Shown: one piece after another, positions 28,312-62,579 of the stretch
Position numbering within the stretch: position 1 is the first letter of the stretch
Layout of the letters: every line of letters begins with the position of its first letter
Assembly: GCF_040907265.1 (NCBI RefSeq)
Contig: NZ_JBFOHP010000002.1
Location: 4,526,001-4,590,000, forward strand
Origin: Streptomyces sclerotialus
GTDB lineage: Bacteria; Actinomycetota; Actinomycetes; Streptomycetales; Streptomycetaceae
Reading direction: 5' to 3'
DNA length: 64,000 nucleotides
Program-made: the position numbers and the translations under genes
The notes under the pieces: model-generated
Told to the model about the DNA's origin: nothing
The model's database searches: none
The model's input: the letters and a program-made list of their open reading frames with translations, nothing else

Positions 28312-29532
28312 TCAGCGCGCTGTCGCCGGGTGGCGGGGGAGTTCGGCTTCGATGAGGGCGGTGGCCTCGGAGGTGCCGCCCTCGTCGGCCATGGCGTGCT
28401 GGATGCGGGCGAAGCGGGCGGGGACGTCCGGGTCGTCGAGGAGGCCGAGGACGGCCTCCCGCAGCGCCTGCGGAGTGGCGCGTTCCTTCGGTACGCAACG
28501 GGCGACGCCCAGTTCCGCGAGCATCGCGGCATTGCCGAACTGGTCGGCGGCCTGGGGGACGGTCACCATCGGGACGCCGCAGGCGAGGGCCTCGTGTGCG
28601 CTGCGCGCGCCCGCGTGCGTGACGAAGGCGTCGGCCTGCCGGAGGACCGCCTGCTGGGGAACCCAGTCGCGTACTTCGATGTGGGCAGGAATCTCGCCGA
28701 GGTCGGCCGGGTCGGTGCCCCGGCCGATCTGCAGGACGACGTGCCAGCCCGGCAGATTGCCGAAGGCCGCGACGCAGGCCCGGTAGAAGTCGGGGGCTTC
28801 GGTGAAGACCGTGCCGAGCGAGATCAGCAGGACTTTCCCGGCGCCGGCCGGGCGGGTCCATCCGTGCTGGTGGCCGTGCTCGGCCCAGCACGGGCCGGTG
28901 AACGAGTAGACGGAGCCGTCGACCCGGTCGGCATGCGGCTGGAGGACCTTGGAGATCAGCGCGATGCAGCGGTCGGGGCGGCGGGCGATGCGGCCGGGGC
29001 CGATGGCGGTGCCGTTGTTGGCGAGCCAGGCGTGGGCCGGCCGGCCCACGCCTGGCTCGCCCGCCTCTCCCCGGCCCGGGGGCGCGGCCGCCAGGTCCGC
29101 CTCGTACCCTTCCCAGGCGACGGCGTGCGGCGAGAGCTGGACGGCGCGGATCTTCCAGCGGTCGGCCAGGGCGCGGGCCGCGTAGGCCATCGGGTCGTAC
29201 AGGATCAGGTCCGGGCGGTCGTCCTGATACGCGGTGACCAGTTGCGGCAGCGCCCGGCCGGCGTCGGCCAGGAACAGCCGTAGGTGGTCGATGAGTTCGC
29301 CGTCCCAGGCGCCCGGCGTCCCGGCGGCGGGCAGCGTGGTCGTGTAGGCCCTGGGCTCGGCACCGGTGGCGGCGACGGTGCCGGCGAAGGAGCTGGGGAC
29401 GGCGTAGGTGACACGGTGACCGCGGGAGACCAGTGCGCGGATCACCTCCAGGCTCGGGTTGACGTGCCCGTGGGCCGCCACGCTGAACATGGCGATATGG
29501 GCGGGCCGGACTCCGGGGGAGAAAGGATTCAT
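28312..29532 (-). CDS. GT-B (MGT-family) glycosyltransferase
   Basis: A 406-residue GT1-family enzyme that transfers an activated sugar to a small acceptor. The start IAMFSVAAHGHVNPSLEVIR and the sugar-nucleotide motif THAGARSAHEALACGVP...PQAADQFGNA match macrolide-type glycosyltransferases. It is the last gene of the ten-gene minus-strand unit that also makes dTDP-rhamnose, so it is the obvious candidate for attaching rhamnose or the aminosugar; enzymes of this subgroup can also inactivate a product for self-protection. The protein has GEPGVGRPAHAWLA encoded by a 40-bp perfect palindrome in a normally variable linker. ATG 29532 lacks a good ribosome site; Met15 (29490) is possible. Confidence 0.88.
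   Translation of the reverse strand: MNPFSPGVRPAHIAMFSVAAHGHVNPSLEVIRALVSRGHRVTYAVPSSFAGTVAATGAEPRAYTTTLPAAGTPGAWDGELIDHLRLFLADAGRALPQLVTAYQDDRPDLILYDPMAYAARALADRWKIRAVQLSPHAVAWEGYEADLAAAPPGRGEAGEPGVGRPAHAWLANNGTAIGPGRIARRPDRCIALISKVLQPHADRVDGSVYSFTGPCWAEHGHQHGWTRPAGAGKVLLISLGTVFTEAPDFYRACVAAFGNLPGWHVVLQIGRGTDPADLGEIPAHIEVRDWVPQQAVLRQADAFVTHAGARSAHEALACGVPMVTVPQAADQFGNAAMLAELGVARCVPKERATPQALREAVLGLLDDPDVPARFARIQHAMADEGGTSEATALIEAELPRHPATAR
29021..29060. repeat. Perfect 40-bp palindrome inside the glycosyltransferase gene
   Basis: Two exact 20-bp arms without a spacer (29021-29040 and 29041-29060, first arm begins GCGAGCCAGGCGTGG). It is within coding sequence, so a terminator role is unlikely. 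Both strands encode GEPGVGRPAHAWLA. It may be a real hairpin or an inverted-duplication artefact. Confidence 0.9.
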
Positions 29533-29589
29533 GGTGGGAAAGGGGTGCCGGGTAGGGGACGGGGGCGCTGGCGGGACGGGCGTCGGCGG

Positions 29590-30186
29590 TCAGCCGTGGC
29601 GTGGCCGGTTGCGCAAGGCGGTGCACGCCTCGTGGGAGGGCAGCAGTCCCTGGCGGTGCAGCTCGGAGAAGGAGGGGGCCTGAGCGTCCTTGGGAGAGAG
29701 CACGGGTTCGATGTCGGCGGGCCAGTCGATCGCGAGGTCCGGGTCCAGCGGATGGATGCCGTACTCGCGGCCGGGCGTATAGCCCTCGGAGCACAGGTAG
29801 ACCACGGTGGCGTCGTCGGTGAGGGCGAGGAAGGCGTGCCCCAGGCCCGCGGAGAGATGGACGGCACGGTTGTCGGTGTCGTCCAGGCGGGCCATCGCCC
29901 ACTGCCGGAAGGTCGGCGAGCCCGTCCGGACGTCGACGACGACGTCCAGGACCGCGCCGCGTACGCAGGTGATGTACTTCGCCTGCCCCGGGGGCACGGC
30001 CGCGAAGTGGATGCCGCGCAGGGCGCCGCGGCGGGACACGGAGAGATTGGCCTGGGCGAGGGGGAGGTCCTGACCGGTGGCCGCGCGGAAGTCGCCGCTC
30101 CTGAACCACTCGTGGAAGCTGCCCCGCTCGTCCGTGAAGACCTCGGGTTCGTGCAGCCAGGCGCCTTCTATCGGCAGGGGTCGCAT
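29590..30186 (-). CDS. rmlC: dTDP-4-dehydrorhamnose 3,5-epimerase (RmlC type)
   Basis: A 198-residue cupin epimerase. The catalytic His lies in ALRGIHFAAVPPGQAKYITC and the catalytic Tyr in TVVYLCSEGYTPGREYG; FTDERGSFHEWF opens the fold. It would epimerise dTDP-4-keto-6-deoxyglucose at C3 and C5 on the way to dTDP-L-rhamnose. The ATG at 30186 lies inside the 3' end of rmlD, an 19-bp overlap, and rmlB and rmlD precede it in the same unit. A second epimerase at 57137 sits with the deoxy-aminosugar genes, so this one is assigned to rhamnose. Confidence 0.85.
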   Translation of the reverse strand: MRPLPIEGAWLHEPEVFTDERGSFHEWFRSGDFRAATGQDLPLAQANLSVSRRGALRGIHFAAVPPGQAKYITCVRGAVLDVVVDVRTGSPTFRQWAMARLDDTDNRAVHLSAGLGHAFLALTDDATVVYLCSEGYTPGREYGIHPLDPDLAIDWPADIEPVLSPKDAQAPSFSELHRQGLLPSHEACTALRNRPRHG

Positions 30187-31157
30187 GTGATCTCGGCTTT
30201 CTCGCGCGTGGTGTCGGATTCCGTGTCCCTGGGCCCCGGCCGTCCGGCCGGGCGGCGCGCCGTTCCCCCGGTGCTCTCCAGCACCGAGGGGAACGCCTCG
30301 GCCAGCGCCGCACTCCAGTGCCGGATCGGTGCCATGCCGGCCGCGTGCCAGCGGTGGTGGCCGAGCACGCTGTAGGCGGGCCGGGGCGCCGGACGCGGAT
30401 AGCGGTCGCCGGTGGTGGGCCGTACCCGCGCGGGGTCGGCACCGAGCAGGCGGAAGATCTCCTGGCAGAACCCGAACCACGTGGTCCGGCCGCCGCTGCT
30501 GCCGTGGTACACCCCGGGCGGTGCGGTACCGTCCAGCGCCCGCTGTCCCAGCCCGACCAGCTGCCGGGCCAGATCCTCCGTCCAGGTCGGCTGGCCCCAC
30601 TGGTCCTCGACCACGTCGACGGCCGCCCGCTCCCGTGCCAGCTCGATCATGGTCCGTACGAAGTTGCGCCCGCCCGCCCCGTACAGCCAGGCGGTACGCA
30701 CCACGTAGCCGGTGTCCGGAAGCAGCTCCAGGACAGCCCGCTCGCCCGCCAGCTTGGTCCGGCCGTACGCACTGCGCGGCGCGGCCGGGGCGTCCTCCGG
30801 GTACGGAGCGCGGGCGCGCCCGTCGAAGACGTAGTCCGTGGACACCTGGAGCAGGACGCTCCCCGATGCCCGGCACGCCCCGGCCAGCAGGCGGGGCCCG
30901 GTGCCGTTGACCGCGAGGGCGTCGGCCTCCCGTTCCTCGGCTGCGTCCACCGCGGTCCAGGCGGCGCAGTTGACCACCACGGCGGGGCGGTGGGCGGCGA
31001 AGGCCGCGTGTACCGACTCCGGGTCGGTGATGTCCAGGTCGCCGCGGCCGGCGGCCACGGCGGTGCGGCCGGTGGCGGCCAGGTGGGTGAGCAGGTCCCG
31101 GGCGAGCATGCCCTGCGCCCCGGTCACCAGCCACGTGCCCGCGTCCTGTGCCGTCAC
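30168..31157 (-). CDS. rmlD: dTDP-4-dehydrorhamnose reductase (RmlD type)
   Basis: A 329-residue short-chain dehydrogenase/reductase. Motifs are the nucleotide loop VTGAQGMLARDLLTHL (third Gly replaced by Ala), VVVNCAAWTAVDAAE, STDYVFDG and the YGRTKLAGE catalytic Tyr/Lys. It reduces the 4-keto group to give dTDP-L-rhamnose. GTG 31157 overlaps the rmlB stop by 4 bp (GTGA). The C-terminal 30 residues (after VLESTGGTARR) are Arg/Pro-rich and longer than usual for the family. It might also serve as the otherwise missing 4-ketoreductase for the second sugar. Confidence 0.85.
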   Translation of the reverse strand: MTAQDAGTWLVTGAQGMLARDLLTHLAATGRTAVAAGRGDLDITDPESVHAAFAAHRPAVVVNCAAWTAVDAAEEREADALAVNGTGPRLLAGACRASGSVLLQVSTDYVFDGRARAPYPEDAPAAPRSAYGRTKLAGERAVLELLPDTGYVVRTAWLYGAGGRNFVRTMIELARERAAVDVVEDQWGQPTWTEDLARQLVGLGQRALDGTAPPGVYHGSSGGRTTWFGFCQEIFRLLGADPARVRPTTGDRYPRPAPRPAYSVLGHHRWHAAGMAPIRHWSAALAEAFPSVLESTGGTARRPAGRPGPRDTESDTTREKAEITCDPCR

Positions 31158-32140
31158 AGCGCCGCCCGCGCCTTCAGGGGCTCCCACCAGGCGCGGTGGT
31201 CGCGGTACCACTGAACCGTCGCGGCGAGGCCCTGCTCGAACGGCACGCGGGGCGCGTAACCCAGCTCTTCGCGGATCTTGGTGCAGTCGACGGAGTAGCG
31301 GCGGTCGTGGCCCTTGCGGTCGGCCACGTACTGGACGCTGCTGTCCCAGTCGGCGCCGCATTCCTTGAGGATCAGCTCGGTGAGCTCCCGGTTGGACAGT
31401 TCGGTGCCGCCGCCGATGTTGTAGACCTCCCCGGCGCGGCCCCGCGTCCGGACGAGTTCGATGCCCTGGACGTGGTCGTCGATGTGCAGCCAGTCCCGGA
31501 CGTTGCCGCCGTCCCCGTACAGCGGGACCCGCTTGCCGTCGAGCAGGTTGGTGACGAACAGCGGGATGGCCTTCTCGGGGAAGTGGTGGTGTCCGTAGTT
31601 GTTCGAGCAGCGGGTGACCCGTACGTCGAGGCCGTGGGTGTGGTGGTACGACAGCGCCACCAGGTCACCGGCGGCCTTGGCCGAGGAGTACGGCGAGCTG
31701 GGCCGCAGGGGGTGGGTCTCGGGCCAGGAGCCCTCGTCGATCGAGCCGTAGACCTCGTCGGTGGAGATCTGCACGAACGTTTCGATACCCGTTCGGTGTG
31801 CGGCGTCGACAAGGGTGTGGGTACCGAGGACGTTGGTACGGACGAACTCGTCGCCGCCGTCGATCGACCGGTCCACGTGCGACTCCGCGGCGAAGTGCAC
31901 CACCTGGTCGTGCTCGGCCATGAGCGGACGCACGACCGCGGGTTCGGCGATGTCGCCGTGGACGAACGCGAACCGCGGATGCCCGCGGACCTCGTCGAGG
32001 TTGGCGGGGTTGCCCGCGTAGGTCAGCTTGTCGAGCACGGTCACGGACACGTCACCGGGCCCCTGCGGGCCGAGCAGCGTGCGGACGTAGTGGGAGCCGA
32101 TGAAACCGGCTCCGCCGGTCACGAGTATCCGGGTCGTCAT
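31154..32140 (-). CDS. rmlB: dTDP-glucose 4,6-dehydratase
   Basis: A 328-residue extended SDR enzyme. The NAD loop GGAGFIGSHYVRTLLG, STDEVYGSIDEGSW, and YSSAKAAGDLVALSY (catalytic Tyr/Lys) are intact, with ATRCSNNYG-like TRCSNNYGHHHFPEKAIPL. It converts dTDP-glucose to dTDP-4-keto-6-deoxyglucose, the branch point for both sugars in this cluster. ATG 32140 gives the standard N-terminus TTRILVTGG; GTG 32152 upstream is possible. It follows the phosphopantetheinyl transferase gene by 50 bp on the same strand. Confidence 0.93.
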   Translation of the reverse strand: MTTRILVTGGAGFIGSHYVRTLLGPQGPGDVSVTVLDKLTYAGNPANLDEVRGHPRFAFVHGDIAEPAVVRPLMAEHDQVVHFAAESHVDRSIDGGDEFVRTNVLGTHTLVDAAHRTGIETFVQISTDEVYGSIDEGSWPETHPLRPSSPYSSAKAAGDLVALSYHHTHGLDVRVTRCSNNYGHHHFPEKAIPLFVTNLLDGKRVPLYGDGGNVRDWLHIDDHVQGIELVRTRGRAGEVYNIGGGTELSNRELTELILKECGADWDSSVQYVADRKGHDRRYSVDCTKIREELGYAPRVPFEQGLAATVQWYRDHRAWWEPLKARAAL

Positions 32141-32190
32141 GAGGAAGCGCACCTTGCTGTGATCACCGGCAGCGACCGGTGGACTTGGGC

Positions 32191-32880
32191 TCAGGGGGTG
32201 TCTACGGAGTCACGGGGCAGCACGATGGCGGCGAGCAGCAGACCGGGCGCGGCCAGCCAGTTTCCGTGCAGCACCGGCGGCAGCCGGTCCGCGGACCCGG
32301 CCGGCGCGGCCCGGAGGAGGCGCGCGCGGAACGTGCCCGTCGGCGCGTCGCCGGCCGGGGCGAAGACGATCGAGGCTTCGTCGAAGCCCAGCCATGCGCG
32401 CGTCAGCGGCGACCAGACCTTGTAGACGGCTTCTTTGGCGCAGAACAGCAGGCGGTCCCAGCACACGTCGCCCGCCGGCCGGCGCAGCGCGTGCAGATGT
32501 GCCTGCTCCTCCGGCAGGGCGATGCGGTCCAGCATGCCGTCCGGCAGCGGCCGGTGCGGCTCGGCGTCGATGCCGAGCGCCCGTACGTCCGCCGCGCGGG
32601 CCAGGGCGGCGGCTCGATAGCCCGCGCAGTGGGTCAGGCTGCCGACCACGCCGTCCGGCCACCGCGGAGCGCCCCTCGGCCCCGGCAGCAGGGGAGCGAG
32701 GGGCACGCCGAGCCGCAGGCCCGCGCGGCGGGCACAGTGCCGTACGGTGGCGAACTCACGGCGGCGGACCGGACACATGGTGGCCGCGTGCCGCTGTTCC
32801 TCGGGGAACAGCCCGGCCGCCGGCTCGTCGCCGTAGGACTCCGCCGCGGTGACGAAGTCCGGCAGTATCCGCGTGATCAT
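32191..32880 (-). CDS. 4'-phosphopantetheinyl transferase (EntD/Sfp group)
   Basis: A 229-residue enzyme that loads coenzyme A-derived phosphopantetheine onto carrier serines. Motifs are GSLTHCAGYRAAALA, the Mg2+-binding GIDAEPHRPLP and FCAKEAVYKVWSPL, all intact. It is the likely activator of the NRPS carrier domains and the free carrier protein encoded at 53251. ATG 32880 is 4 bp from the stop of the luciferase-like gene, so the two are closely coupled. Confidence 0.92.
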   Translation of the reverse strand: MITRILPDFVTAAESYGDEPAAGLFPEEQRHAATMCPVRRREFATVRHCARRAGLRLGVPLAPLLPGPRGAPRWPDGVVGSLTHCAGYRAAALARAADVRALGIDAEPHRPLPDGMLDRIALPEEQAHLHALRRPAGDVCWDRLLFCAKEAVYKVWSPLTRAWLGFDEASIVFAPAGDAPTGTFRARLLRAAPAGSADRLPPVLHGNWLAAPGLLLAAIVLPRDSVDTP

Positions 32881-32884
32881 GGCA

Positions 32885-33844
32885 TCAGTCCCGGCCGGGG
32901 GCGAGTGCCTCGACCTGCCCGACGGGATCGCCACCGCTGCTCGGCAGCAGCGCGATCACGGGCGTGTCGAGGCCGGCGGCCGCGTACGCCCGGATACGCG
33001 CGCGGCACTCCTCGGGGCTGCCGTGCACGATCAGTTCGTCGACCGTCTCGTCCGGAACGGCCATCACCGCGCGCCAGCGCTCGCCCGCGTCCCAGGCCCG
33101 GTGCATCGCGGCGAGCGGCTCCGTCCGGCCCAGCCAGTCCTGGAACGCCCGGTAGGCGGGCACGGTGAGATAGCTGCTGATCATCATCCGGCCGAGCCGG
33201 CGGGCCTCCCTGGCGTCCTCGGTGAGGCACACGAAGACCGGGGCGATCAGCTCGGGCCCGGGACCGAGTTCGGCCCTGACCTTCGGTACGTCGGTGGCGG
33301 CCAGCCAGTTGGTGATCGCCCCGTCCGCCTCGGACGCGGCCAGCCGCAGCATGCGGGGGCGCAGCGCCGCCAGCAGGACCGGCGGCGGCGTGGCGGGCGG
33401 CCGTTCCAGGCGGAACCCGCGTACCGAGAACGTCGGGTACCGCTCGTTCACCACCTTGCCGGTGAAGGCGGCACGCAGGAACCGGAGGGTGTCGCGGGTA
33501 CGGGCGTAGGGCCGGGTGTGCTCCAGGCCGTTCCAGTCCCGCACGACGCCGGGGGAGGAGGCGCCGATGCCGAGGGCGAACCGGCCGGGCGCGCAGTCGG
33601 CGACGGTCGCGGCGGTCATGGCGAGCAGGGCCGGGCCCCGGGTGAACACCGGGGCGACGGCCGTGCCCAGCCGCAGGTCGGGCGCCCACTGCGAGGCCAG
33701 CACCAGCGGCGAGAACGCGTCGGTGCCCGAGGTCTCGGCCGTCCACACGTCGGTGTAGCCCAGATCGGGGAGCCGCTCGAGGAGCGCGCGGTGTGCCGGC
33801 AGGGGCACGCCGGGCAGCGGGAGGGTGATCCCCCAACGGGTCAT
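32885..33844 (-). CDS. Luciferase-like (LLM) F420- or flavin-dependent oxidoreductase
   Basis: A 319-residue TIM-barrel enzyme of the bacterial luciferase-like superfamily: WGITLPLPGVPLPAHRALLERL at the start, DVWTAETSGTDAFSPL, RLGTAVAPVFTRGP, and GRFALGIGASSPGVV. The pattern is closer to F420-dependent oxidoreductases of actinobacteria than to FMN luciferases. Its reaction in this pathway is not evident; hydroxylation, dehydrogenation or reduction of a carrier-bound or cinnamoyl intermediate are all possible. ATG 33844 has GGAG seven bases upstream. It is 105 bp downstream of the ammonia-lyase-like gene in the same unit. Confidence 0.85.
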   Translation of the reverse strand: MTRWGITLPLPGVPLPAHRALLERLPDLGYTDVWTAETSGTDAFSPLVLASQWAPDLRLGTAVAPVFTRGPALLAMTAATVADCAPGRFALGIGASSPGVVRDWNGLEHTRPYARTRDTLRFLRAAFTGKVVNERYPTFSVRGFRLERPPATPPPVLLAALRPRMLRLAASEADGAITNWLAATDVPKVRAELGPGPELIAPVFVCLTEDAREARRLGRMMISSYLTVPAYRAFQDWLGRTEPLAAMHRAWDAGERWRAVMAVPDETVDELIVHGSPEECRARIRAYAAAGLDTPVIALLPSSGGDPVGQVEALAPGRD

Positions 33845-33949
33845 CGGGTGGTCTCCAGTCTCGTGGGCGGTTCCGGATCGGGGACGGTGCGTCCGGGGCG
33901 GTGCGGTCCGTACCACCGCGGGCGCCGGGGGAGGCGCCCGCGGTGGTGG

Positions 33950-35470
33950 TCAGTCGCCGGCGGCCAGCAGGGCGTCCGCGTGGTCACGGAAGAGGTCCGC
34001 GGCCGCGCGCACCTCGGCGGCCATCGGACGGTCGGCCTCCAGCGCGGGGGACACGGCGGCCAGTTCGCCCCACAGCCCGGCGGTCTCCGGCGTATGCCCG
34101 GTCATCACGGCCAGCTGCGCCGCGCCCAGGGCGAGCGAACCGACGGCGTGCCAGCCCAGTTCCAGGGCTTCGGCGACGCCGTTCGCGCCGTTGAGCGCCA
34201 TCGGGACGTGGTCCTGGTTCCAGCCGTTCGTCGGCAGGGTCGTCAGCGAGGCCGGGGTGACCAGCTGCCGGATCCGCGAGATGAAGGAGGTGGCGCTGAT
34301 CTGCACGCCGGCCAGGCCGCAGCCGCGGCCGGCCCGGGGGGTGAGCATGATGGGCAGGTCGCCGTTGGTGGTCGGGCTGACCACCAGGGCGAGCTGACGC
34401 TCGGCCAGGTACGCGGCCGTGTGCATGGCCAGACCGGTCTGCTCCGAGGCGAGACCGACCGGCATGGCATGGAAGTTCCCGGCGTGCAGCACCCGGCCCT
34501 CGTAGGTGAGCGGATTGTCGGTGCAGCCGTTCGCCTCCCGCAGCAGGATCTCCCCGGCCATGGTGAGCTGGTCCAGCGCGGCGCCGAGCACCTGTGGCGC
34601 GCAGCGCAGGCTGTACGGCTCCTGGAGCGGCCGGCGCTCGTCCCGCTGGTGGTCGGCGGGGAGTTCCCGGCGTATCCAGCGGGCCACCCGCAGCTGTCCC
34701 ACCTGGCCGCGCGCCTGGCCGACGCCTTCGTCGTAGTGCTCCGCGTTGCCGCCGAGCAGCACCGTCAGGCGCGCGGTGAGCACCGCGACGGCCCGCACGA
34801 GGCGCAGGGCCGAGCGCTGGTTGAGGAGGGCGACGGCGAGGCCGACGCCGGTGCCGTTGACGAAGGCGAGCGCCTCACGGACCGGCCACACCAGCGGTTC
34901 GGCGCCCAGCTCCGCGAGGGCCTGGGTGGCCGGGCGCAGGACCCACTCGCCGCGCTCGTCGCGTACCCATGCCTCGCCGTGGCCGGCGCACGCCAGCGCC
35001 ACGTGGGCCAGCGGCTGCAGGTCGCCGCTGGCGCTGACCGTGCCGTCCCGCGGGATCGCCGGGGTGAAGCCGGCGTTCCACAGGTCCGCCAGGCGCTGCC
35101 AGAAGTCGGGCGACACGGCGGAGAAGCCCTTGCGCATGCTGTTCAGCCGCAGCCAGAAGACCAGCCGTGACGCCTCCGGGGCGAGGGGCCGGCCCTGCGC
35201 GGTGCCCAGGTGGGAGATGAGCGAGCTGCCCTGCTCCATCTCGGAGGTGGCGGAGTAGGTCACCAGCGGGCCGAAGCCCTGCGTCAGCCCGTAGACGGGC
35301 TTGCCGTCGGCCAGGTACCGGTCGACGGTGGCGCCGCTCTCCCGCATCCGGGCCACGTCCGCGTCGCTGAGCGGACCGAGCTTCGCGGTCCAGGCGGCGG
35401 ACTCGACGAGGACCTCCAGGCTGGGCAGGTCCGTGCCGGCGCGGCCGGTGGTCGTGGGAGTCTGTGTCAC
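33950..35470 (-). CDS. MIO-dependent aromatic amino acid ammonia-lyase/aminomutase (tyrosine type suggested)
   Basis: A 506-residue member of the HAL/PAL/TAL family. The Ala147-Ser148-Gly149 triad (DGTVSASGDLQPL) forms the MIO cofactor, and the catalytic Tyr60 lies in VYGLTQGFGPL. LISHLGTAQG has His-Leu at the selectivity position, as in tyrosine ammonia-lyases, so tyrosine is the favoured substrate; TVSASGDL...AYLAERQLALV and EPYSLRCAPQVLG are conserved. The product would be p-coumarate (lyase) or beta-tyrosine (mutase); sequence alone does not decide. GTG 35470 overlaps the stop of the ligase gene (GTGA). The pairing with that ligase, and with the HpaB hydroxylase at 61068, mirrors TAL/ligase/hydroxylase sets for caffeoyl units and aminomutase/hydroxylase sets in enediynes. 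Confidence 0.9.
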   Translation of the reverse strand: MTQTPTTTGRAGTDLPSLEVLVESAAWTAKLGPLSDADVARMRESGATVDRYLADGKPVYGLTQGFGPLVTYSATSEMEQGSSLISHLGTAQGRPLAPEASRLVFWLRLNSMRKGFSAVSPDFWQRLADLWNAGFTPAIPRDGTVSASGDLQPLAHVALACAGHGEAWVRDERGEWVLRPATQALAELGAEPLVWPVREALAFVNGTGVGLAVALLNQRSALRLVRAVAVLTARLTVLLGGNAEHYDEGVGQARGQVGQLRVARWIRRELPADHQRDERRPLQEPYSLRCAPQVLGAALDQLTMAGEILLREANGCTDNPLTYEGRVLHAGNFHAMPVGLASEQTGLAMHTAAYLAERQLALVVSPTTNGDLPIMLTPRAGRGCGLAGVQISATSFISRIRQLVTPASLTTLPTNGWNQDHVPMALNGANGVAEALELGWHAVGSLALGAAQLAVMTGHTPETAGLWGELAAVSPALEADRPMAAEVRAAADLFRDHADALLAAGD

Positions 35471-36609: not shown

Positions 36610-36651
36610 TCGCACTCCCTGTAGTGGAACGACCCGGTGCCGGGCGGTGGA

Positions 36652-37524: not shown

Positions 37525-37567
37525 CGCTCTTCCCATTCTTCAATAACGAGGTCGCCAGGAACGGAAG

Positions 37568-52938: not shown

Positions 52939-52988
52939 AGATGCTCCTTCGACGAAGCCGCCAGGGGAAGGGAGAGGGCGCCGGCGGT

Positions 52989-54618: not shown

Positions 54619-55728
54619 ATGACCCAGCACGTGTGGGGTTACTTGCCCGAGTACGAGAAGGAACGCGCTGACATTCTCGATGCCGTGGACACGGTGTTCC
54701 GCTCGGGGCAGCTGGTGCTGGGCAACAGCGTCCGCAGCTTCGAGCGGGAGTTCGCCGACCACCACGGCGTCGGCCACTGCGTCGGCGTCGACAACGGAAC
54801 CAACGCCATCGTGCTCGGTCTCCGTGCCCTGGGGATCGGCCCCGGCGACGAGGTGATCACCGTGTCGAACACGGCGGCGCCGACCGTCGTGGCCATCAAC
54901 GCCGTGGGCGCCACCCCGGTGTTCGTCGACATCCACTCCGACACGTACCTGATGGACGTGGACCAGGTGGCCGCGGCCGTCACCCCGCGCACCCGCTGCC
55001 TGCTCCCGGTGCACCTTTACGGCCAGTGCGTCGACATGGCACCGCTGAAGGAGCTCGCCGAACGGCACGGCCTGCTCGTCCTGGAGGACTGTGCGCAGGC
55101 GCACGGCGCCCGCCACCACGGGCGGATAGCCGGCTCGATGGGGAATGCCGCGGCGTTCTCCTTCTACCCGACCAAGGTCCTCGGGGCCTACGGCGACGGC
55201 GGCGCCACGGTCACCGACGATCCGGACGTCGACGCGCGCCTGCGGCGGCTCCGCTTCTACGGCATGGAGGACCGCTACTACGTCGTCGAGACCCCCGGCT
55301 ACAACAGCCGCCTGGACGAGGTGCAGGCCGAGATCCTGCGCCGCAAGCTCCCCCGGCTGGACGGCTACGTGGCCCGTCGCAGGGAGATCGCCCAGCGGTA
55401 CGCGGAGGCCTTCAAGGGCACCGACCTCGTCACGCCCGTGACCGCTTCCGGCAACGAGCACGTCTACTACGTGTACGTGGTGCGCCACCCGCGCCGAGAC
55501 CAGATCATCGAGGCCCTCAAGGCCCACGGCATCGCGCTGAACATCAGCTACCCCTGGCCGGTGCACACCCAGTCGGGATTCGGCTACCTCGGTTACGGCA
55601 AGGACGCGCTGCCGGTCACCACCCGGGTGGCCGACGAGATCTTCTCCCTGCCCATGTACCCGTCCCTGTCCGACGCCGAGCAGGAACGGGTCATCGACGC
55701 GGTGACCGACGTCATGGGAAGGCTCTGA
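54619..55728 (+). CDS. NDP-hexose 3-aminotransferase (DegT/DnrJ/EryC1 family)
   Basis: A 369-residue PLP enzyme. The start [19 protein letters not shown] resembles DnrJ- and EvaB-type sugar 3-aminotransferases. Other motifs are [29 protein letters not shown] and the PLP lysine in [14 protein letters not shown], then HVYYVYVVR. It would aminate C3 of the 2,6-dideoxy-3,4-diketo sugar produced by the dehydratase encoded next. GGAGG lies 13 bases before ATG 54619. The stop is 4 bp from the dehydratase start. Confidence 0.92.
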
Positions 55729-55732: not shown

Positions 55733-57082
55733 GTGAGCGTCATGTCGACCACCGAGTTCCACGCCTGGTGGGCCGAGCGCCGCCAGGCCGGCGGGTTCTC
55801 GGTGGAGCGCATCCCCTTCGACGCGCTGGACTCCTGGAACTTCGAGCCGCGAACCGGCAACCTCGGCCACGAGAGCGGGCGGTTCTTCACGGTCGAAGGG
55901 CTCCAGGTCCGCGAGGGCGGAGCGGAGATCTGGTCGCAACCGGTCATCAACCAGCCCGAGATCGGCATCCTCGGCATCGTCGTCAAGGAGTTCGACGGTG
56001 TTCTGCACTGCCTCATGCAGGCCAAGATGGAGCCGGGCAACGCCAACACGATCCAGCTCTCACCGACGGTGCAGGCGACGCGCAGCAACTACATGAAGGT
56101 GCACCGGGGCGCCGGCACCCGGTACCTGGAGTACTTCACCGGGCCGCAGCGCGGGCAGGTCCTCGTGGACGTCCTCCAGTCGGAGCAGGGCGCCTGGTTC
56201 TGGCGCAAGCGGAACCGCAACATGGTCGTGCTCGCGACCGGTGACGTACCGCTGTACGAGGACTTCTGCTGGCTCACCATGGACCAGATCCGTGAGCTGA
56301 CCATGGTGGACAACCTCGTCAACATGGACGCCCGCACGGTGCTGTCGTGCATGCCGTTCATGCTCCCCGACGAGGCCGAGTCGGCCGGCCGGGACGCGTT
56401 CCACGACGCGCTGGTGCGCTCGTACCAGTACCAGGCGGCGGAGGACCTGGACACCCCGGGCACCGCGGGCAGAATCCTGAGCTGGTTCACCGAGGCGAAG
56501 ACCCGCTGCGACTGGTCGGCGCGTCTCGTACCGCTGGCGGACGTGACCGGCTGGCGGCGCGACGAGTGGGAGATCACCGACGACGCGGCGGAGAACTTCC
56601 GCATCATCGCGGTGCGGGTCGCGGCCGGCACCCGTGAGGTCACCCGCTGGACGCAGCCCCTGCTCCACCCGCGCGGGGAGGGCCGGGCGGTCTTCCTCGT
56701 CCGGTCCGTCGGCGGGGTGCTCCGGCTGCTGGTGCGGGCCCGGCCCGAGTACGGCCTGCTGGACCAGGTCGAGATGGCGCCGACCGTGCATCTGCACCCG
56801 GGGCAGGGACTCGCGGACATCCAGGAGTCCTGCCTGCGCGACGCGCTGCTGCCCGGCGGCGGCACGACGCGCTACGACCACGTGCTCTCGGAGGAGGGCG
56901 GGCGGTTCCACCACGCGCTGACGCGCTACCAGGTGATCGAGGTGAACGAGGACTTCCCGCTCGACGTGCCGCCCCAGCTGTGCTGGATGACGGCACGGCA
57001 GCTCACCGACCTGCTCCGGCACGGTCACTACCTCAACATCGAGGCCCGGTCCCTGCTCACGTGCCTGCTCAGCCTGTGCTGA
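55733..57082 (+). CDS. NDP-hexose 2,3-dehydratase
   Basis: A 449-residue enzyme of the EvaA/TylX3 family, built from two homologous halves: NLGHESGRFFTVEGLQV...QPVINQPEIGILGIVVKEFDG...NTIQLSPTVQATRSNY in the first and WEITDDAAENFRIIAVRV...VEMAPTVHLHPG in the second. It removes the C2 hydroxyl of dTDP-4-keto-6-deoxyglucose, committing the sugar to a 2-deoxy series. GTG 55733 or ATG 55742 start it; the first is nearer the previous stop and favoured. Confidence 0.95.
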   Translation: MSVMSTTEFHAWWAERRQAGGFSVERIPFDALDSWNFEPRTGNLGHESGRFFTVEGLQVREGGAEIWSQPVINQPEIGILGIVVKEFDGVLHCLMQAKMEPGNANTIQLSPTVQATRSNYMKVHRGAGTRYLEYFTGPQRGQVLVDVLQSEQGAWFWRKRNRNMVVLATGDVPLYEDFCWLTMDQIRELTMVDNLVNMDARTVLSCMPFMLPDEAESAGRDAFHDALVRSYQYQAAEDLDTPGTAGRILSWFTEAKTRCDWSARLVPLADVTGWRRDEWEITDDAAENFRIIAVRVAAGTREVTRWTQPLLHPRGEGRAVFLVRSVGGVLRLLVRARPEYGLLDQVEMAPTVHLHPGQGLADIQESCLRDALLPGGGTTRYDHVLSEEGGRFHHALTRYQVIEVNEDFPLDVPPQLCWMTARQLTDLLRHGHYLNIEARSLLTCLLSLC

Positions 57083-57136: not shown

Positions 57137-57763
57137 ATGTTTGATGCGGCACGAGTGACCGAAATGTCGATCGAGGGGGCTTACCGCATAGTCCCCAACA
57201 AATTCCCGGACCAGCGGGGCTCCTTCTTCGAGGCCTTCCGGGCCGACATCCTCACGGAGATCATCGGCTACCCCTTCGCCGTCCGGCAGGCGAACTACTC
57301 CGTCAGCCGGCGGAACACGATGCGGGGCATCCACAGCACCTCCCTGCCACCGGGCCAGGCCAAGCTGGTCACCTGCGTGCGGGGGGCCGTCCTGGACGTC
57401 GCGGTGGACCTGAGGGTGGGGTCACCCACCTTCGGGAAGTACGACACGACACCGCAGGACGAGGAGTCCGGTACCGCGGTGTACCTGGCCGACGGCATCG
57501 GCCACGCCTTCCTGGCCCTCACCGACGACGCGTGCATGAACTACCTGTGCTCGGAGGCGTACATCCCCGGCACGATGATCGAGGTCAACCCCCTCGATCC
57601 CGACATCGGCATTCCCTGGGGGAACACCGAACCGCCGATCATGTCAGAGAAGGACGCCACGGCCCCCACGCTGGCCGAAGCGGTGTCCCAGGGGCTGCTC
57701 CCGCTGTACGAGGAGTGCCTCGTCCACTACGAGGCGCTGCGGAAGCGCCCCGACCAGGGCTGA
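57137..57763 (+). CDS. dTDP-sugar 5-(or 3,5-)epimerase, deoxysugar type (EvaD/RmlC family)
   Basis: A 208-residue cupin epimerase. The catalytic His is in TMRGIHSTSLPPGQAKLVTC, and Tyr in CMNYLCSEAYIPG. It is clearly related to the rmlC product at 29590 but distinct, and its place between the 2,3-dehydratase and the Gfo/Idh gene assigns it to the second sugar, converting a D- to an L-configured intermediate. ATG 57137 is used, although the operon partner lies 54 bp upstream without a strong ribosome site. Confidence 0.9.
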   Translation: MFDAARVTEMSIEGAYRIVPNKFPDQRGSFFEAFRADILTEIIGYPFAVRQANYSVSRRNTMRGIHSTSLPPGQAKLVTCVRGAVLDVAVDLRVGSPTFGKYDTTPQDEESGTAVYLADGIGHAFLALTDDACMNYLCSEAYIPGTMIEVNPLDPDIGIPWGNTEPPIMSEKDATAPTLAEAVSQGLLPLYEECLVHYEALRKRPDQG

Positions 57764-57831: not shown

Positions 57832-58824
57832 ATGTTTAAGAGCACGAGCGACAGACTGCGCATCGGGATCATGGGGTGTGCGGATATCGCCTGGCGGCGG
57901 ACGCTCCCGGCCATGGAGAGCAACCCCGCCGTGCGCGTCACGGCGATCGCCAGCCGGCACCAGCGGTCCGCGGCCGGGTTCACCGAACGGTTCGGCGGCG
58001 TGCCGCTCGAAGGGTACGGAGCGCTGCTCGACCGCGACGACGTCGACGCCGTCTACATTCCGCTGCCGGGCCTGCTGCACGCCGAATGGGTCTCCAGGGC
58101 CCTGGCGGCGGGCAAGCACGTGCTGGTCGAGAAGCCGCTGACGGCCGGGTACGAGGAAACCCGCCGGCTGGTCGACGAGGCGCGCTCGCGGGACCTGGTG
58201 CTGCTGGAGAACTACATGTTCCTCTACCACTCCCAGCACACCGCGGTGCGCAAGGCGCTGGCCGAGGAGGCCATCGGTGAACTGCGCGGCTTCTCCAGCG
58301 CGTTCACCATCCCGCCCAAGCCCGCCGGTGACATCCGCTACCAGCGCGACGTGGGCGGCGGCGCCTTCCTCGACTTCGGCGGCTATCCGGTACGGGCCGC
58401 CCAGTTCTTCCTCGGCCATGAACTCCGGGTGGCCGGTGCGGTGTTCCGGCACGACCGGCGGCACGGAGTGGTGATGTCCGGCAGCGTCCTGCTGTGCACG
58501 CCCCAGGGGGTGCCGGCCCAGCTGACGTTCGGCATGGAGCACTCCTACCGCAACACCTACAGCGTCTCCGGCAGCACCGGCCGGATCATCCTCGACCGCG
58601 CCTTCACACCGCCGGAGACGTACCAGCCGGTGATGCGGGTGGAGCGGCAGGACCACCGCGAGGAACTGGTCCTGGCGCCCGACCACCAGTTCGCGAACGT
58701 GATCGACACGTTCGTGGGCGCCGTCGTCGGGGACCGCGACGTCACGGAACAGCAGGAGGGCTCCCTGCGCCAAGCGGCACTGATCGAGGAGATCCGGGAA
58801 CGCGCCCAGCTGGTGGAGGTCTGA
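57832..58824 (+). CDS. Gfo/Idh/MocA-family NDP-hexose 3-ketoreductase-like oxidoreductase
   Basis: A 330-residue NAD(P)-dependent enzyme. It has RIGIMGCADIAWRRTLPAM (Rossmann start), the EKP motif in KHVLVEKPLTAG, and GGGAFLDFGGYPVRAAQF. Sequence and context match KijD10/OleW-type 3-ketoreductases of deoxysugar pathways. That role competes with the 3-aminotransferase in the same operon: one intermediate cannot receive both a 3-OH and a 3-NH2, so this enzyme either serves another sugar or has shifted regiochemistry (for example 4-keto reduction). ATG 57832 with GGAG upstream; last gene of the plus-strand unit. Confidence 0.88.
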   Translation: MFKSTSDRLRIGIMGCADIAWRRTLPAMESNPAVRVTAIASRHQRSAAGFTERFGGVPLEGYGALLDRDDVDAVYIPLPGLLHAEWVSRALAAGKHVLVEKPLTAGYEETRRLVDEARSRDLVLLENYMFLYHSQHTAVRKALAEEAIGELRGFSSAFTIPPKPAGDIRYQRDVGGGAFLDFGGYPVRAAQFFLGHELRVAGAVFRHDRRHGVVMSGSVLLCTPQGVPAQLTFGMEHSYRNTYSVSGSTGRIILDRAFTPPETYQPVMRVERQDHREELVLAPDHQFANVIDTFVGAVVGDRDVTEQQEGSLRQAALIEEIRERAQLVEV

Positions 58825-58832
58825 AACGCGCC

Positions 58833-58873: not shown

Positions 58874-58896
58874 TGTGGTGAGCGGGGGAGTGCCGG

Positions 58897-59886
58897 TTAC
58901 GGCAGGAAACCCTCGATGCGGGTGCCCATGCCGCGGCGCACCGCCTCGTCCCGCACCCACCGCGCCAGGGCCAGGTCCAGGATGCCGAGACCGAACGGGG
59001 AGAACACCACCGGCCGTGCCGGGTCCCTGCGGAAAGCGGAACCGTCCCGCAGCAGCGCCCCGATGGACGTGTCGATGAAGTCCCGCCCCCCGGTCGCCTG
59101 TTCGGCCAGGTGCAGCGAGGTGTTCTCCCGGCAGACGTGGTCCGCGTCGTCGACCACGTTCTGCGCGCCGAGGACCGCCTCGGCCGACAGGTCCCGCAGG
59201 GAGACGTGCAGCACCGTGGCGTCCGGACGGCAGGCGGACAGGTCCAGGTGCGGCCGGACGGCGGACGTGGCGAGAGAGACCAGCGGATGGGCGCCGAGGG
59301 CGTCCTCCGCCCGCTCCGCCACCGCGCACTCGACGTCCGGTACCAGCTCGGCGGCGCGGGCGGCGAAGTCCGCGGCACGCTCCCGGTCCAGGTCGAACAC
59401 CGTGGCCGTACGCAGCGAGGGCAGCCGGGCCTTGGTGAAGCGCAGCACTTCCCGGTTGATGGGACCGCAGCCGATCAGGGTGATGCCCTGGGGCTCGGGG
59501 GCCGTCACCAGCCGGGCGGCGGCCAGCGCCGCGGAGGCGGCGGTGCGCCGGGACGAGATCAGCGACGCCTCGATCAGCGCCTCGGGGCGTCCGTCGGCCA
59601 TCGAGTTGAGCAGCATGGCGGCGCTGGCCCGCTCCTTCCCCTCGGCGACGTTGCCGGGGAAGCTGGCGATCCACTTCAGGCCGGCCACCGCGTCGGCGCC
59701 GCCCACGTAGGCCGGGAGGCCGATGATGCGGTCGCGGGCGCTGTCCGGGAAGCGCAGGAACACCGAGTGCGGCAGCGCGGTGCGGCCCTCCTCGTGGTGG
59801 CGGTAGGTCTCGTCCACCAGCGAGAGGACCTGCTGCTCCCCGTCGCGGAGGATGTCCTGCACCTCACCATGTCCGATGATCAACAA
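58897..59886 (-). CDS. SbnB-like N-(2-amino-2-carboxyethyl)-L-glutamate dehydrogenase
   Basis: A 329-residue member of the ornithine cyclodeaminase/mu-crystallin family. It has GLKWIASFPGNVAEGKERAS and the NAD loop ITLIGCGPINREVLRF, where SbnB orthologues oxidatively cleave N-(1-amino-1-carboxyl-2-ethyl)-glutamate to give L-2,3-diaminopropionate and 2-oxoglutarate. The neighbouring SbnA-like gene provides that substrate, a pairing that defines this Dap pathway (as in staphyloferrin B and viomycin). The start is TTG 59886 with GGAGAG six bases upstream, 23 bp inside the SbnA-like gene. Confidence 0.9.
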   Translation of the reverse strand: MLIIGHGEVQDILRDGEQQVLSLVDETYRHHEEGRTALPHSVFLRFPDSARDRIIGLPAYVGGADAVAGLKWIASFPGNVAEGKERASAAMLLNSMADGRPEALIEASLISSRRTAASAALAAARLVTAPEPQGITLIGCGPINREVLRFTKARLPSLRTATVFDLDRERAADFAARAAELVPDVECAVAERAEDALGAHPLVSLATSAVRPHLDLSACRPDATVLHVSLRDLSAEAVLGAQNVVDDADHVCRENTSLHLAEQATGGRDFIDTSIGALLRDGSAFRRDPARPVVFSPFGLGILDLALARWVRDEAVRRGMGTRIEGFLP

Positions 59887-60970
59887 GAGGGGCTCTCCTT
59901 TGTGTGGGCATTGCCGTCGTAGCGGTGGTCGCGGGGCCGGTCACCGTGGTGGCCGGCGGCGTGCGCGCGGTGTCCGGCGCGGCCGGGCCCGACCACAGAT
60001 GAGCCACGTCACCGAAGTGCCGGCCCACCCATGCGTCGGAGTAGATGGTGTCGAGGTAGCGGTCCCCGCCGTCCGGCAGGATCAGGACGCAGCAGGACCC
60101 GGCGGGGAGCTCCGGCGCCAGCTTCTCCAGCGCGGCGACCAGGGCACCGGAGGAACCCCCGGCGAGCACCGCCTCACGGTCCACGAGCCGCCGGCAACCG
60201 ACCACCGATTCCAGGTCCCCGACGTGCACCACCCGGTCGGCGGCCGCCGGGTCCAGCAGCGCGGGCACGACGGCCGCGCCGTGCCCGGGGATGAGCCGCG
60301 GACACGTCACCGGGGAGCCGAACAGCCGGCTGCCCACCGCGTCGACCGCCACGACCGTGGTCGGCAGGGCGTGCTCCCGTACGTACGCGGCGCAGCCACC
60401 CAGGGTCCCGGTGGTGCCGGCCGCGCAGAAGAGGTAGTCCACCGCGCCGTCCAGCGCCTCGTCGATCTCGCGCATGGTTCTCAGGTGCGCCCGCGGGTTG
60501 AAGGGGTTGTCGTACTGGCCCGGTACGTAGGAGTCCGGGACGGCCGCCGCCAGCTCGGCGACCCGGCGCAGCCGCCGGGGCAGGTAGTCCCCCGACACCG
60601 GGTCGGGCTCGGTGACGACCTCGACCTCGGCCCCGTAGGCCCGCAGGATCGCCAGGTTCTGCTCGGTGGTCCGGGCGTCGACGACACAGACGAACCGCAC
60701 TCCGAGGTACCGGCAGATGTGCGCGATGCCGATGGCGAGGTTGCCCGAGCTGGACTCGATCACCGTGGTCCGGCCGGGCACCACCTCACCGGTGCGCACC
60801 GCCTCGCGCAGCATGCTCAGCGCCGACCGGTCCTTGATGCTGCCACCGGGATTGAACTTTTCGATCTTCGCGAGGACCCGGAGGCCGAGGTCGGCGGAGA
60901 GCCGCTCCAGTTCGACCAAAGGGGTGTCCCCCACCGTCGCGAGAATGCCCTTGAGCGGCTGCGCGGCCAC
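59864..60970 (-). CDS. SbnA-like N-(2-amino-2-carboxyethyl)-L-glutamate synthase
   Basis: A 368-residue PLP enzyme of the cysteine synthase fold. The PLP lysine is in NPGGSIKDRSALSML, with ESSSGNLAIGIAHICRYLG binding the substrate carboxylate and FCAAGTTGTLGGCA the cofactor phosphate. SbnA enzymes join O-phospho-L-serine and L-glutamate. The C-terminal 30 residues (Thr/Ala-rich, TTVTGPATTATT) are an unusual tail that may exist only because the next gene's start lies within it. GTG 60970 with a GGGGGAG ribosome site close by. Confidence 0.92.
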   Translation of the reverse strand: MAAQPLKGILATVGDTPLVELERLSADLGLRVLAKIEKFNPGGSIKDRSALSMLREAVRTGEVVPGRTTVIESSSGNLAIGIAHICRYLGVRFVCVVDARTTEQNLAILRAYGAEVEVVTEPDPVSGDYLPRRLRRVAELAAAVPDSYVPGQYDNPFNPRAHLRTMREIDEALDGAVDYLFCAAGTTGTLGGCAAYVREHALPTTVVAVDAVGSRLFGSPVTCPRLIPGHGAAVVPALLDPAAADRVVHVGDLESVVGCRRLVDREAVLAGGSSGALVAALEKLAPELPAGSCCVLILPDGGDRYLDTIYSDAWVGRHFGDVAHLWSGPAAPDTARTPPATTVTGPATTATTAMPTQRRAPLVDHRTW

Positions 60971-61067
60971 CGACTCCCCCTGCCATGAGAACTGCGTGCT
61001 GATCGTGGATTCCCGGGAGGCGGATGCCTCTGCCGGTGCGGTGCGGTGCGGGCCGGTCCCGGCCCGG

Positions 61068-62579
61068 TCAGGCCCCGGTGGCCGGGCGCGGCAGGTCGCC
61101 GGGCCCGAACAGGTCGGGGCGCGTCCAGCCGTCCAGGTCGTACTCGGACATGCACTGGTCCGCGAAGCCCTTCAGGGCGTCGGCCTGGCCCCGCGCCTGG
61201 TAGCTCAGCAGGGTCTGGACGCGGATGCCCTCGTGGTCGCCGCCGTAGTTCCGCTCGTACAGCTCGTGCCGGCCGGCGAATTCGGTGCCGACGCAGTCCC
61301 ACAGCAGCTTGAGGAGCTTGACGCGGTCGATGGCCTCGACGCCGCGCGAACCGCGCAGATAGCGGTCCAGATAAGGGCGGACCTCGGGGTTCTTCCAGTC
61401 GCTCGCATGCGAATTGAGGTAGATCAGTCCGCTGCCGATGGTCTGCTGGATGATTTCCCGGATGCGCGGATAGCCGATGCCCATGAATGTGCGGTACGCC
61501 AGCCCGTAGTTGAGGTTCGGCTGCACCGCGCCGTTGTGCCAGTCGGTGGGCGACTTCGCCATCGCGTCGGACATCCCCCAGAACATGTCACGCCAGTTGA
61601 GGACCTCTCCGATCTGCGCCTGTACGCCTCGGAATCCGGAGGTGCCGGTCACCTCGACGGCCTTCAGCAGACAGCCCGCGATGAAGTCGAGTTTCACCGC
61701 GAGACGCGTGCACCCGTGAAAGGTGAAGCGCTCCAGGAATCCCGACCGGGTGGCGAACGCGTTGGCCGAGGCGGCGTCGTACATGAACACGTTCTCCCAC
61801 GGCACCAGCACCCGGTCGAGCACCATGATCGAGTCGTTCTCGTCCAGCCGGCTCGACAGGGGGTAGTCGAAGGGACTGCCCAGCACGGCCGCGTGCATCT
61901 CGTAGGAGGTACGGCAGAACAGCTTGAGGCCGGGGGAGTCCATCGGCACCGTGAACATCGCGCCGAAACGCTTGTCCCGCAGCGGCAGCCCCATGTGCGC
62001 GATCAGATTGGCGTTGGTGAGCGCGGAGGAGGTGGCCACGACCTTGGCGCCGGACACCACCAGGCCGGCGTCGGTCTCCTCCTCGACGTGGACGCAGACG
62101 TCAGCGGTCCGGTCGGCCGGCCGGTCGCGGTCCACCGGCGGGTGGACGATCGCGTGGTTGAAGTACAACACCCGTTCCTGCGCCCGCCGGTACCAGGCCA
62201 GCGCATTGTCGCGGAACGGACCGTAGAAGTCGGCGTTGGCCTCCAGGGTGCCGAAGAACGCGGCCTTGTAGTCGGGGGTGCGGCCCATCCAGCCGTACAC
62301 CAGCCGCTGCCAGGCGACGATGGCGTCGCGCGCCGCGACCAGGTCCCCGGCGCTCCTGGCGGTCTTGAAGAAGGGGTGGGTGAACCCGCCGTTCCCGGTG
62401 TCCGTCGGGACGCTCAGCACACCGCGGGAGTCCGGCTCGTGCAGCACGTCGTAGAGCTGCGCGAGGGACCTGGCGCTGTTGCGGAAGGCGGGGTGCGCGG
62501 TGACGTCCCGGACCCGCTCCCCGTGGATGTAGACCGCACGCCCGTCCCGCAGGGAATCCAGGTATTCCGCACCGGTCAT
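61068..62579 (-). CDS. HpaB-family FAD-dependent aromatic 3-hydroxylase
   Basis: A 503-residue two-component flavin hydroxylase of the 4-hydroxyphenylacetate 3-monooxygenase large-subunit family. It begins [20 protein letters not shown], the normal family start. Conserved parts are the [17 protein letters not shown] helix, the flavin region [20 protein letters not shown] and [14 protein letters not shown]. Relatives hydroxylate p-coumarate to caffeate, tyrosine, or PCP-bound beta-tyrosine. With the MIO enzyme (33950) the pair would give a 3,4-dihydroxyphenyl unit. No flavin reductase partner is visible in the window. ATG 62579 has no strong ribosome site; GTG 62588 is an alternative. Confidence 0.92.

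Follow-up and report, generated by a model that had tools for sequence, protein, structure and literature searches.

An orphan Streptomyces gene cluster that probably encodes an oligosaccharide-bearing, phenylpropenoyl-capped nonribosomal tetrapeptide

A 64,000-nucleotide stretch of the Streptomyces sclerotialus genome (bases 4526001–4590000 of contig C2, genome size 8.28 Mb; hereafter the window) contains most of an orphan biosynthetic gene cluster that probably directs the synthesis of a nonribosomal tetrapeptide with 2,3-diaminopropionate (Dap)- and asparagine-type residues, capped with a phenylpropenoyl (caffeoyl) group and bearing a saccharomicin-like deoxysugar chain. This proposal is built from gene families, synteny, closest relatives and the residues of the adenylation (A) domains. 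The cluster is real, conserved and larger than first described, spanning ~48.5 kb from window position 28312 to the window-equivalent of 76857, of which the window holds ~70%. A first-pass annotation of the window had closed the cluster at 62579; in fact, ten more syntenic genes carry it ~13 kb beyond the right window edge (locus L007), namely seven tandem EryCIII-like glycosyltransferases and then three further genes. The same annotation's description of a 'two-sugar' cluster does not hold either, with these seven glycosyltransferases beyond the window and one inside it. Its parts list proved accurate, every gene that it named being found at or inside 28312..62579 in Pfam and NCBIfam searches; absent from that list were a phosphopantetheinyl transferase (32191), an F420-type luciferase-like oxidoreductase (32885), an Mgt/OleI-type glycosyltransferase (28312) and a GNAT-like protein (54004). 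Left of 28 kb, the scanned genes are ordinary chromosomal ones (topoisomerase I, a thymidylate-kinase protein, a DNA polymerase III delta-type protein and a TAP-like hydrolase). PH-domain genes, kept in all four species compared, follow the right-hand end and are taken as the right flank, outside the cluster.

To trace conservation, 34 cluster genes were used as queries against relatives. S. abikoensis JCM 4002 holds 33 of them (without the luciferase-like oxidoreductase), as does S. rhizoryzae RS10V-4, with six tandem glycosyltransferases instead of seven, and a third Streptomyces genome, G358, holds 31, without the Dap synthesis genes SbnA and SbnB and the carbamoyltransferase. Gene order is the same in this genome and the three others, and because it is kept across species at 67–95% protein identity of the matching genes, chance grouping is excluded. 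Streptomyces sp. NRRL F-4489 shows the same order in the parts read; its contig ends inside the cluster and it was left out of the count. S. rhizoryzae also shares the left flank (TAP-like, polymerase III protein, tmk and topA), genes that were not found in the examined flanks of G358 and S. abikoensis. A lyase more than 80% identical to that of the cluster occurs in 3 of 392 genomes of the genus, this one included, and the next best match is at 52%. We also considered that two unrelated neighbours, an oligosaccharide pathway and a nonribosomal peptide synthetase (NRPS) cluster, might lie adjacent by accident. The starter and sugar genes do stand beside a different NRPS in two genomes of another family (G818 and G555) and are hence exchangeable; here, however, sugar, starter and peptide genes are interleaved, with rmlA and the C-methyltransferase gene, for example, lying between the ligase and 2-oxoglutarate (2OG) oxygenase genes, and this order recurs in all of the four Streptomyces genomes. 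Accidental adjacency was rejected on interleaving and synteny and appears very improbable.

The caffeoyl cap is predicted from four proteins (strand signs follow coordinates throughout). The short acyl ligase of the acyl-CoA synthetase, NRPS adenylation and luciferase (ANL) superfamily (35467..36615, −), a predicted coumaroyl/caffeoyl ligase, is 60% identical at 97% coverage to Q2EYY6 (P0055), the 'Putative caffeoyl CoA-ligase' of Saccharothrix espanaensis. Compared with a normal ANL enzyme it is shorter by about 110 residues at the N-terminus (its residue 48 pairs with residue 157 of 3nyq), and it retains the TSGSTG, STETGG and late Lys motifs. The 4-methylideneimidazole-5-one (MIO) aromatic lyase (33950..35494, start approximate, −; PF00221, 1.9e-112), a predicted tyrosine ammonia-lyase, has an ASG triad and an SHLG stretch and is 69% identical to P0194 of Amycolatopsis sp. 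YIM 10, which carries an ammonia-lyase annotation; when the cluster enzyme is read without gaps against histidine lyase, His-Leu falls at its candidate substrate-signature site. For the HpaB-type aromatic hydroxylase (61068..62576, start approximate, −), the closest solved structure is 4oo2, with 305 of 488 aligned residues identical (62%). The free carrier-like protein (53251..53583, −), which has a DSFS motif, is 75–86% identical in the Streptomyces relatives and 58–60% in G818, G555 and a third genome of their family, G553, and is present in seven of the eight relatives read (G602 being the exception); its conservation fits HpaB hydroxylation of a carrier-bound acid. The matches to Q2EYY6 and 4oo2 support the first-pass lead towards saccharomicin and enediyne pathways, and the saccharomicin-type set of tyrosine ammonia-lyase, Sam7-type ligase and aromatic hydroxylase is present, the ligase by direct comparison and the lyase and hydroxylase by family, with the activities predicted.

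Alternatively, the MIO enzyme could be a tyrosine aminomutase, in which case HpaB would hydroxylate carrier-bound beta-tyrosine, as in enediyne pathways, and caffeate would not be made. The hydroxylase's closeness to 4oo2, which we take to be SgcC, acting on carrier-bound beta-tyrosine, speaks for this, as do the retained carrier protein and the tyrosine aminomutases among the matches of the lyase. Yet the partner ligase is 60% identical to a protein named as a caffeoyl-CoA ligase, the lyase reaches 231.6 on the aminomutase model, short of its cut-off of 501, and the homologue in the saarvienin producer is annotated as an ammonia-lyase, so that we regard an aminomutase as improbable. C-1027-type enediyne pathways, compared through 4oo2 only, share the HpaB-type hydroxylase and the free carrier protein with this cluster; they differ in that no polyketide synthase domain is among the Pfam matches of the window genes scanned and in that the ligase here is of caffeate type.

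The peptide would be assembled by two NRPSs with four A domains, which Pfam resolves, together with condensation (C) and peptidyl carrier protein (PCP) domains, as A1-PCP-C-A2-PCP in NRPS1 (47813..52940, start approximate, −) and C-A3-PCP-C-A4-PCP in NRPS2 (41234..47816, −); an MbtH-like protein is encoded next to them (52989..53204, −; PF03621, 2e-17). With position 278 set using a conserved proline as anchor, the codes read DALQFATVDK for A1 and DITQQGEIAK for A2 (each in four of four genomes read), and DLPKIAEVGK for A3 and D[LI]P[GT][VI]AEVAK for A4 (each in five of five). A domain of the A1 type (Q278, [SC]AGEP, NTYGPTEC) occurs in seven of ten other loci with an SbnB homologue (L016–L020, G818 and G555), and because of this resemblance A1 is provisionally assigned to Dap. 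The A3 code matches DLTKIGEVGK, listed under Glu/Gln/Asp/Asn in the section available from PMC12283262, at eight of ten positions; on this match, together with the asparagine-oxygenase (AsnO)-like 2OG enzyme described below, A3 is provisionally assigned to Asn or hydroxy-Asn. NRPS1 opens with A1, with no starter C domain ahead of it. In the second C domain of NRPS2, HPVIEG replaces HHxxxDG, and the relatives likewise have HP[VA]IEG.

Dap supply is indicated by SbnB (58897..59886, −) and SbnA (59864..60970, −), which pass their NCBIfam cut-offs (TIGR03944, 398.1 against 326.9 bits, and TIGR03945, 395.6 against 349.95 bits, respectively). The carbamoyltransferase of the ornithine carbamoyltransferase (OTCase) family (40275..41234, −; PF02729, PF00185), which is predicted to act on Dap, is 53% identical to a copy in G358 that stands beside SbnB-like and PALP genes, against 30–34% for other OTCase-family matches across five genomes. 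In the G358 cluster, SbnA, SbnB and the carbamoyltransferase are missing together; elsewhere in that genome, a PALP gene adjoins the 53% carbamoyltransferase copy and an SbnB homologue at 42%. Since the Dap-locus copy is the closest and the absence is joint, we tie the carbamoyltransferase to Dap and not to a sugar, and in G358 Dap may be supplied from outside the cluster. That second G358 region (L067/L068, G358:C1:4009410-4019176) is a separate small cluster, in which the three genes adjoin an AurF-like N-oxygenase, a LysE-type exporter, an MFS protein and a class-III aminotransferase.

The TauD-type 2OG oxygenase (39173..40177, +) matches asparagine oxygenase (2og5) with 281.4 bits and 161 of 312 aligned residues identical (52%), compared with 79–105 bits for arginine hydroxylase entries and 108–109 bits for CmnC, and it scores 144.3 on the VioC model TIGR03946, whose cut-off is 418.6, as would not be expected of a VioC-type arginine hydroxylase. 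This bears on whether the locus is a tuberactinomycin-type (viomycin/capreomycin) cluster with sugars added. The locus does have Dap genes, a carbamoyltransferase and a 2OG enzyme in common, in kind, with such clusters, but aromatic starter genes and eight glycosyltransferases are, to our knowledge, foreign to the tuberactinomycin family, and the AsnO-like 2OG enzyme falls far under the VioC cut-off; on this enzyme the tuberactinomycin reading was rejected, and we give it next to no credence. The first-pass view that tuberactinomycins share the Dap, carbamoyl and hydroxylase parts thus stands for the Dap genes and the carbamoyltransferase and falls for the hydroxylase. Going by the portion of PMC9403184 available, in which viomycin is carbamoylated by VioL, the likeness lies in Dap and carbamoylation in kind, and the differences in hydroxylase family, aromatic starter and sugars.

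Two sets of sugar genes lie in the window. One comprises RmlA (36652..37536, −; TIGR01207, 419.6 against a cut-off of 360.65), RmlB, a dTDP-glucose 4,6-dehydratase (31154..32152, −; TIGR01181, 420.7 against 365.1), RmlC, a dTDP-4-dehydrorhamnose 3,5-epimerase (29590..30210, start approximate, −; PF00908, 1.1e-57), and RmlD (30168..31158, start approximate, −; PF04321, 2.1e-96). The other comprises a DegT-type sugar aminotransferase (54619..55728, +; PF01041, 1.7e-114), an NDP-hexose 2,3-dehydratase (55733..57082, +; PF03559, 1.8e-146), a second sugar 3,5-epimerase (57137..57763, +; PF00908, 1.4e-52), a MocA-type oxidoreductase that is a predicted 3-ketoreductase (57832..58824, +; PF01408) and a sugar C-methyltransferase (37568..38803, start approximate, −; PF08421, PF13489, PF08484). 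Beyond the window, the seven glycosyltransferases of the tandem array (L007:2936-12078, window-equivalent 64935–74077; all seven by tblastn, three by Pfam) are all open, at 423–435 residues, and are followed, to L007:14858 (equivalent 76857), by Pfam-supported genes for an NAD-dependent epimerase/reductase, a GNAT acetyltransferase and an aldo-keto reductase. The array numbers seven glycosyltransferases here, as it does in G358 and S. abikoensis, against six in S. rhizoryzae; a tandem array of many such enzymes is of saccharomicin type, and with the Mgt/OleI-type enzyme the total in this cluster is eight. A glycosyltransferase of the cluster is 59% identical to P0270, a protein named for Actinosynnema sp. 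NPDC047251. The one array member tested against TIGR04516 passes, and the array enzymes look activator-dependent. Glycosyltransferases 2 and 5 of the array are the same over their first 25 residues, and their counterparts in G358 show 87% identity, which suggests recent duplication or gene conversion.

In the pathway that we infer from these genes, which is conjectural in its individual reactions, their sequence, the site of linkage and the product, the MIO lyase would convert L-tyrosine to p-coumarate, which the short ligase would activate and load onto the free carrier protein, and the SgcC-like HpaB would then add a second hydroxyl to give a caffeoyl thioester. SbnA and SbnB would make L-Dap, which the carbamoyltransferase might convert, free or in the peptide, to ureido-Dap, and the AsnO-like enzyme would hydroxylate Asn. 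NRPS1 and then NRPS2, assisted by the MbtH-like protein, would assemble Dap-X-Asn/OH-Asn-Y. Since no starter C domain precedes the first A domain of NRPS1, a free-standing enzyme, either a GNAT-like protein of the cluster or the ligase itself, would attach the caffeoyl group to the N-terminal amine. Finally, the seven activator-type glycosyltransferases would extend, outward from the catechol, a chain made up of L-rhamnose, a 2,6-dideoxysugar and a C-methyl aminosugar.

Several observations weigh against the proposed product and pathway. Neither NRPS gene keeps its reading frame in this genome, NRPS1 changing frame near 49680 and NRPS2 near 42610 (42580–42660). On the starter side, the MIO lyase reaches no NCBIfam cut-off (best model histidine ammonia-lyase, 319.5 against 524); its His-Leu site is presumably the tyrosine signature, and both its substrate and its action as a lyase instead of a mutase are predictions. 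The next closest matches of HpaB are 4-hydroxyphenylacetate enzymes (605 bits), which need no carrier, the carrier protein scores below the Pfam cut-off (PF00550, E 0.023), and in 60 kb read of G602 there is no HpaB, carrier protein or Dap gene. As for the peptide, A2 and A4 carry no substrate assignment, position 239 is Leu in A1 and Trp in the six that were read of the seven similar domains, and no A1-type domain was seen in the DNA examined of L013, L014 and L015. G358 retains the same A-domain codes without in-cluster Dap genes, and further SbnB homologues (42–47%) lie elsewhere in this genome, in that of S. rhizoryzae and, at three places, in G358. The cluster genes scanned include neither a thioesterase nor a transporter, nor a P450-type activator for the array glycosyltransferases. 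The saarvienin and saccharomicin clusters were compared by published description and by single proteins, and the YIM 10 lyase counts here as a protein of the saarvienin producer and only possibly of its saarvienin cluster, BGC14.

The frame changes, missed in the first-pass annotation, are either sequencing errors or the mark of a dead copy, and the pathway can work in this genome only if both are sequence errors. NRPS1 is open in three of three relatives read (G358, S. abikoensis and S. rhizoryzae) and NRPS2 in four of four (the same three and NRRL F-4489). At the NRPS1 break, this genome is one base shorter than G358 and S. rhizoryzae, and likewise than S. abikoensis, where the alignment is gappy; at the NRPS2 break, the difference covers a longer GC-rich, low-complexity repeat stretch, whose length departs from that in the relatives by a count that is no multiple of three. 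These changes, with the open frames of the relatives, speak for a relic, with real frameshifts in both genes and no peptide made here. On the other hand, the other cluster genes read were open, and the two sites fall in runs of very high GC content or in repeats, which are prone to assembly error. We therefore hold a relic to be the less likely outcome, albeit one to be reckoned with, and it would be compatible with the proposed tetrapeptide in the relatives. Of these, the named strains S. abikoensis JCM 4002 and S. rhizoryzae RS10V-4 carry open NRPS frames.

In another family, the starter and sugar genes are kept beside a different NRPS in G818, G553 and G555. All three keep together the carrier protein, HpaB, lyase, ligase, SbnA, aminotransferase, dehydratase and epimerase, as well as MocA, 4-ketoreductase-like, aldo-keto reductase and glycosyltransferase genes, with identities of 81–83% for HpaB, 80–81% for the aminotransferase, 71–72% for the lyase and 59% for the ligase, and each has eight tandem glycosyltransferases. 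In the two loci that were extended (G818 and G555), the carbamoyltransferase (63–64%) and the C-methyltransferase (76–77%) are present as well, and within the 100 kb read of each, neither a 2OG nor a luciferase-like gene turned up. The NRPS pieces of the three genomes are only 42–44% alike to those of this cluster (tblastn, with correctly framed NRPS pieces). This shared cassette with differing NRPSs suggests a modular route to glycosylated peptides. G602 is more distant, with lyase at 61%, ligase at 44%, aminotransferase at 72%, C-methyltransferase at 66% and eight EryCIII-like glycosyltransferases. It is an evenly balanced question whether the locus represents an unreported class, in which a tetrapeptide of Dap or ureido-Dap and hydroxy-asparagine would be joined to a carrier-made caffeoyl cap with about seven or more deoxysugars, and the starter/sugar cassette paired with different NRPSs across genera; were this so, nature would swap the peptide under one glycan.

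The cluster was also compared with published systems. In saarvienin A, HHPP sits on the alpha-amine of Dap, two Dap residues are urea-joined and five sugars are carried on the phenol (PMC12171682). BGC14 of Amycolatopsis sp. YIM10 contains Dap genes, an aromatic lyase, an AMP-binding protein, an NRPS of six modules, a Trp halogenase, a methyltransferase, eremosamine genes and four glycosyltransferases (PMC12171682). Common to BGC14 and this cluster are thus the Dap synthesis pair, an aromatic lyase with an AMP-binding ligase, an NRPS and several glycosyltransferases, and the vancosamine-type aminosugars with rhamnose and digitoxose on the phenol of saarvienin A are a further likeness; HpaB, the AsnO-like oxygenase and the carbamoyltransferase of this cluster are not mentioned for BGC14 in the part of the description available (PMC12171682). 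Conversely, among the cluster genes scanned there is no halogenase that would go with a beta-methyl-chloro-Trp, and the sole methyltransferase seen is of the sugar C-methyltransferase type. The saccharomicin sam cluster of Saccharothrix espanaensis has a tyrosine ammonia-lyase, a 4-coumarate 3-hydroxylase, the short caffeoyl ligase sam7, ten tandem glycosyltransferases (seven here) and sugars of the rhamnose, digitoxose and 4-epi-vancosamine types, all of which resemble this cluster (PMC3469384, PMC8234114). It differs in its caffeoyl-taurine aglycone and in that no NRPS, Dap gene or carbamoyltransferase is named for sam in those parts of the papers (PMC3469384, PMC8234114), whereas two NRPS genes lie inside this cluster. 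The cluster shares the logic of saccharomicin and saarvienin, though not all parts of either.

Biffamycin A resembles the proposed product in being a tetrapeptide built by a pair of dimodular NRPSs (A-PCP-C-A-PCP then C-A-PCP-...), in its hydroxylated amino acid and in its glycosylation, and differs in its one hexose, tryptophan chemistry, and epimerase and SurE release domains (PMC13285481, in part); on published descriptions, biffamycin A and manikomycin were set aside as unrelated. The first-pass annotation had found no named compound for this combination of genes, and we agree: no description of the cluster or its product was found in a search covering open-licence papers only, and the product is probably unreported. 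Its further view that a product joining the Dap–peptide and aromatic–sugar parts would be structurally new overlooked saarvienin A, which already joins Dap, the aromatic lyase/AMP-binding pair, an NRPS and a sugar chain (PMC12171682, in part). The cluster family sits between the saccharomicins and saarvienin A, as it couples a starter and a glycosyltransferase array of saccharomicin type to Dap-containing NRPSs. Activity against resistant Gram-positive bacteria is reported for the saccharomicins as well as for saarvienin A (PMC8234114, PMC12171682).

Among the remaining genes, the glycosyltransferase at the left edge (28312..29532, −; PF00201) belongs to the MGT/OleI/macrolide-inactivating group (TIGR01426, 385.5 bits, cut-off 260; NF033129, 550.9 bits, under its cut-off of 700) and is possibly a self-protection enzyme. 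A 4'-phosphopantetheinyl transferase (32191..32865, start approximate, −; PF17837, PF01648) and the F420-type luciferase-like oxidoreductase (32885..33916, −; PF00296; TIGR03841, 312, cut-off 213.65) lie between RmlB and the lyase. The GNAT-like protein (54004..54537, +) has no Pfam or NCBIfam match and is 34% identical to the Pfam-supported GNAT of the same cluster. Divergent from HpaB lies a sensor-histidine-kinase-like gene (62967..64000, running off the window, = L007:968-2104, +; open reading frame read by eye), a flank gene or regulator.

Used as a query, the YIM 10 lyase P0194 matched in 2 of 118 and 10 of 394 genomes of the class, two samples that overlap, and in 27 of 341 genomes of one family; no match exceeded 73% identity. 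G019 and G278, with lyases at 50–52%, were rejected as kin, as only lyase and ligase match cluster genes in the 35 kb of each, apart from an aldo-keto reductase (36%) in G019. Their loci (L058 in G019, L060 in G278) have short ANL ligases near the lyases; the surrounding clusters hold either amidase and DAHP synthase genes or genes of ATP-grasp and prenyltransferase type. Lastly, a second HpaB, 64% identical, lies elsewhere in the S. sclerotialus genome (L008/L009, G000:C2:8095001-8130000) with chorismate-binding/GATase protein, PhzF-like, gamma-glutamyltranspeptidase, luciferase-like, UvrA-like, flavin reductase and O-methyltransferase genes and NRPS genes of A-T and C-A-T-reductase type (T, thiolation), a region that presumably resembles a pyrrolobenzodiazepine-type cluster.

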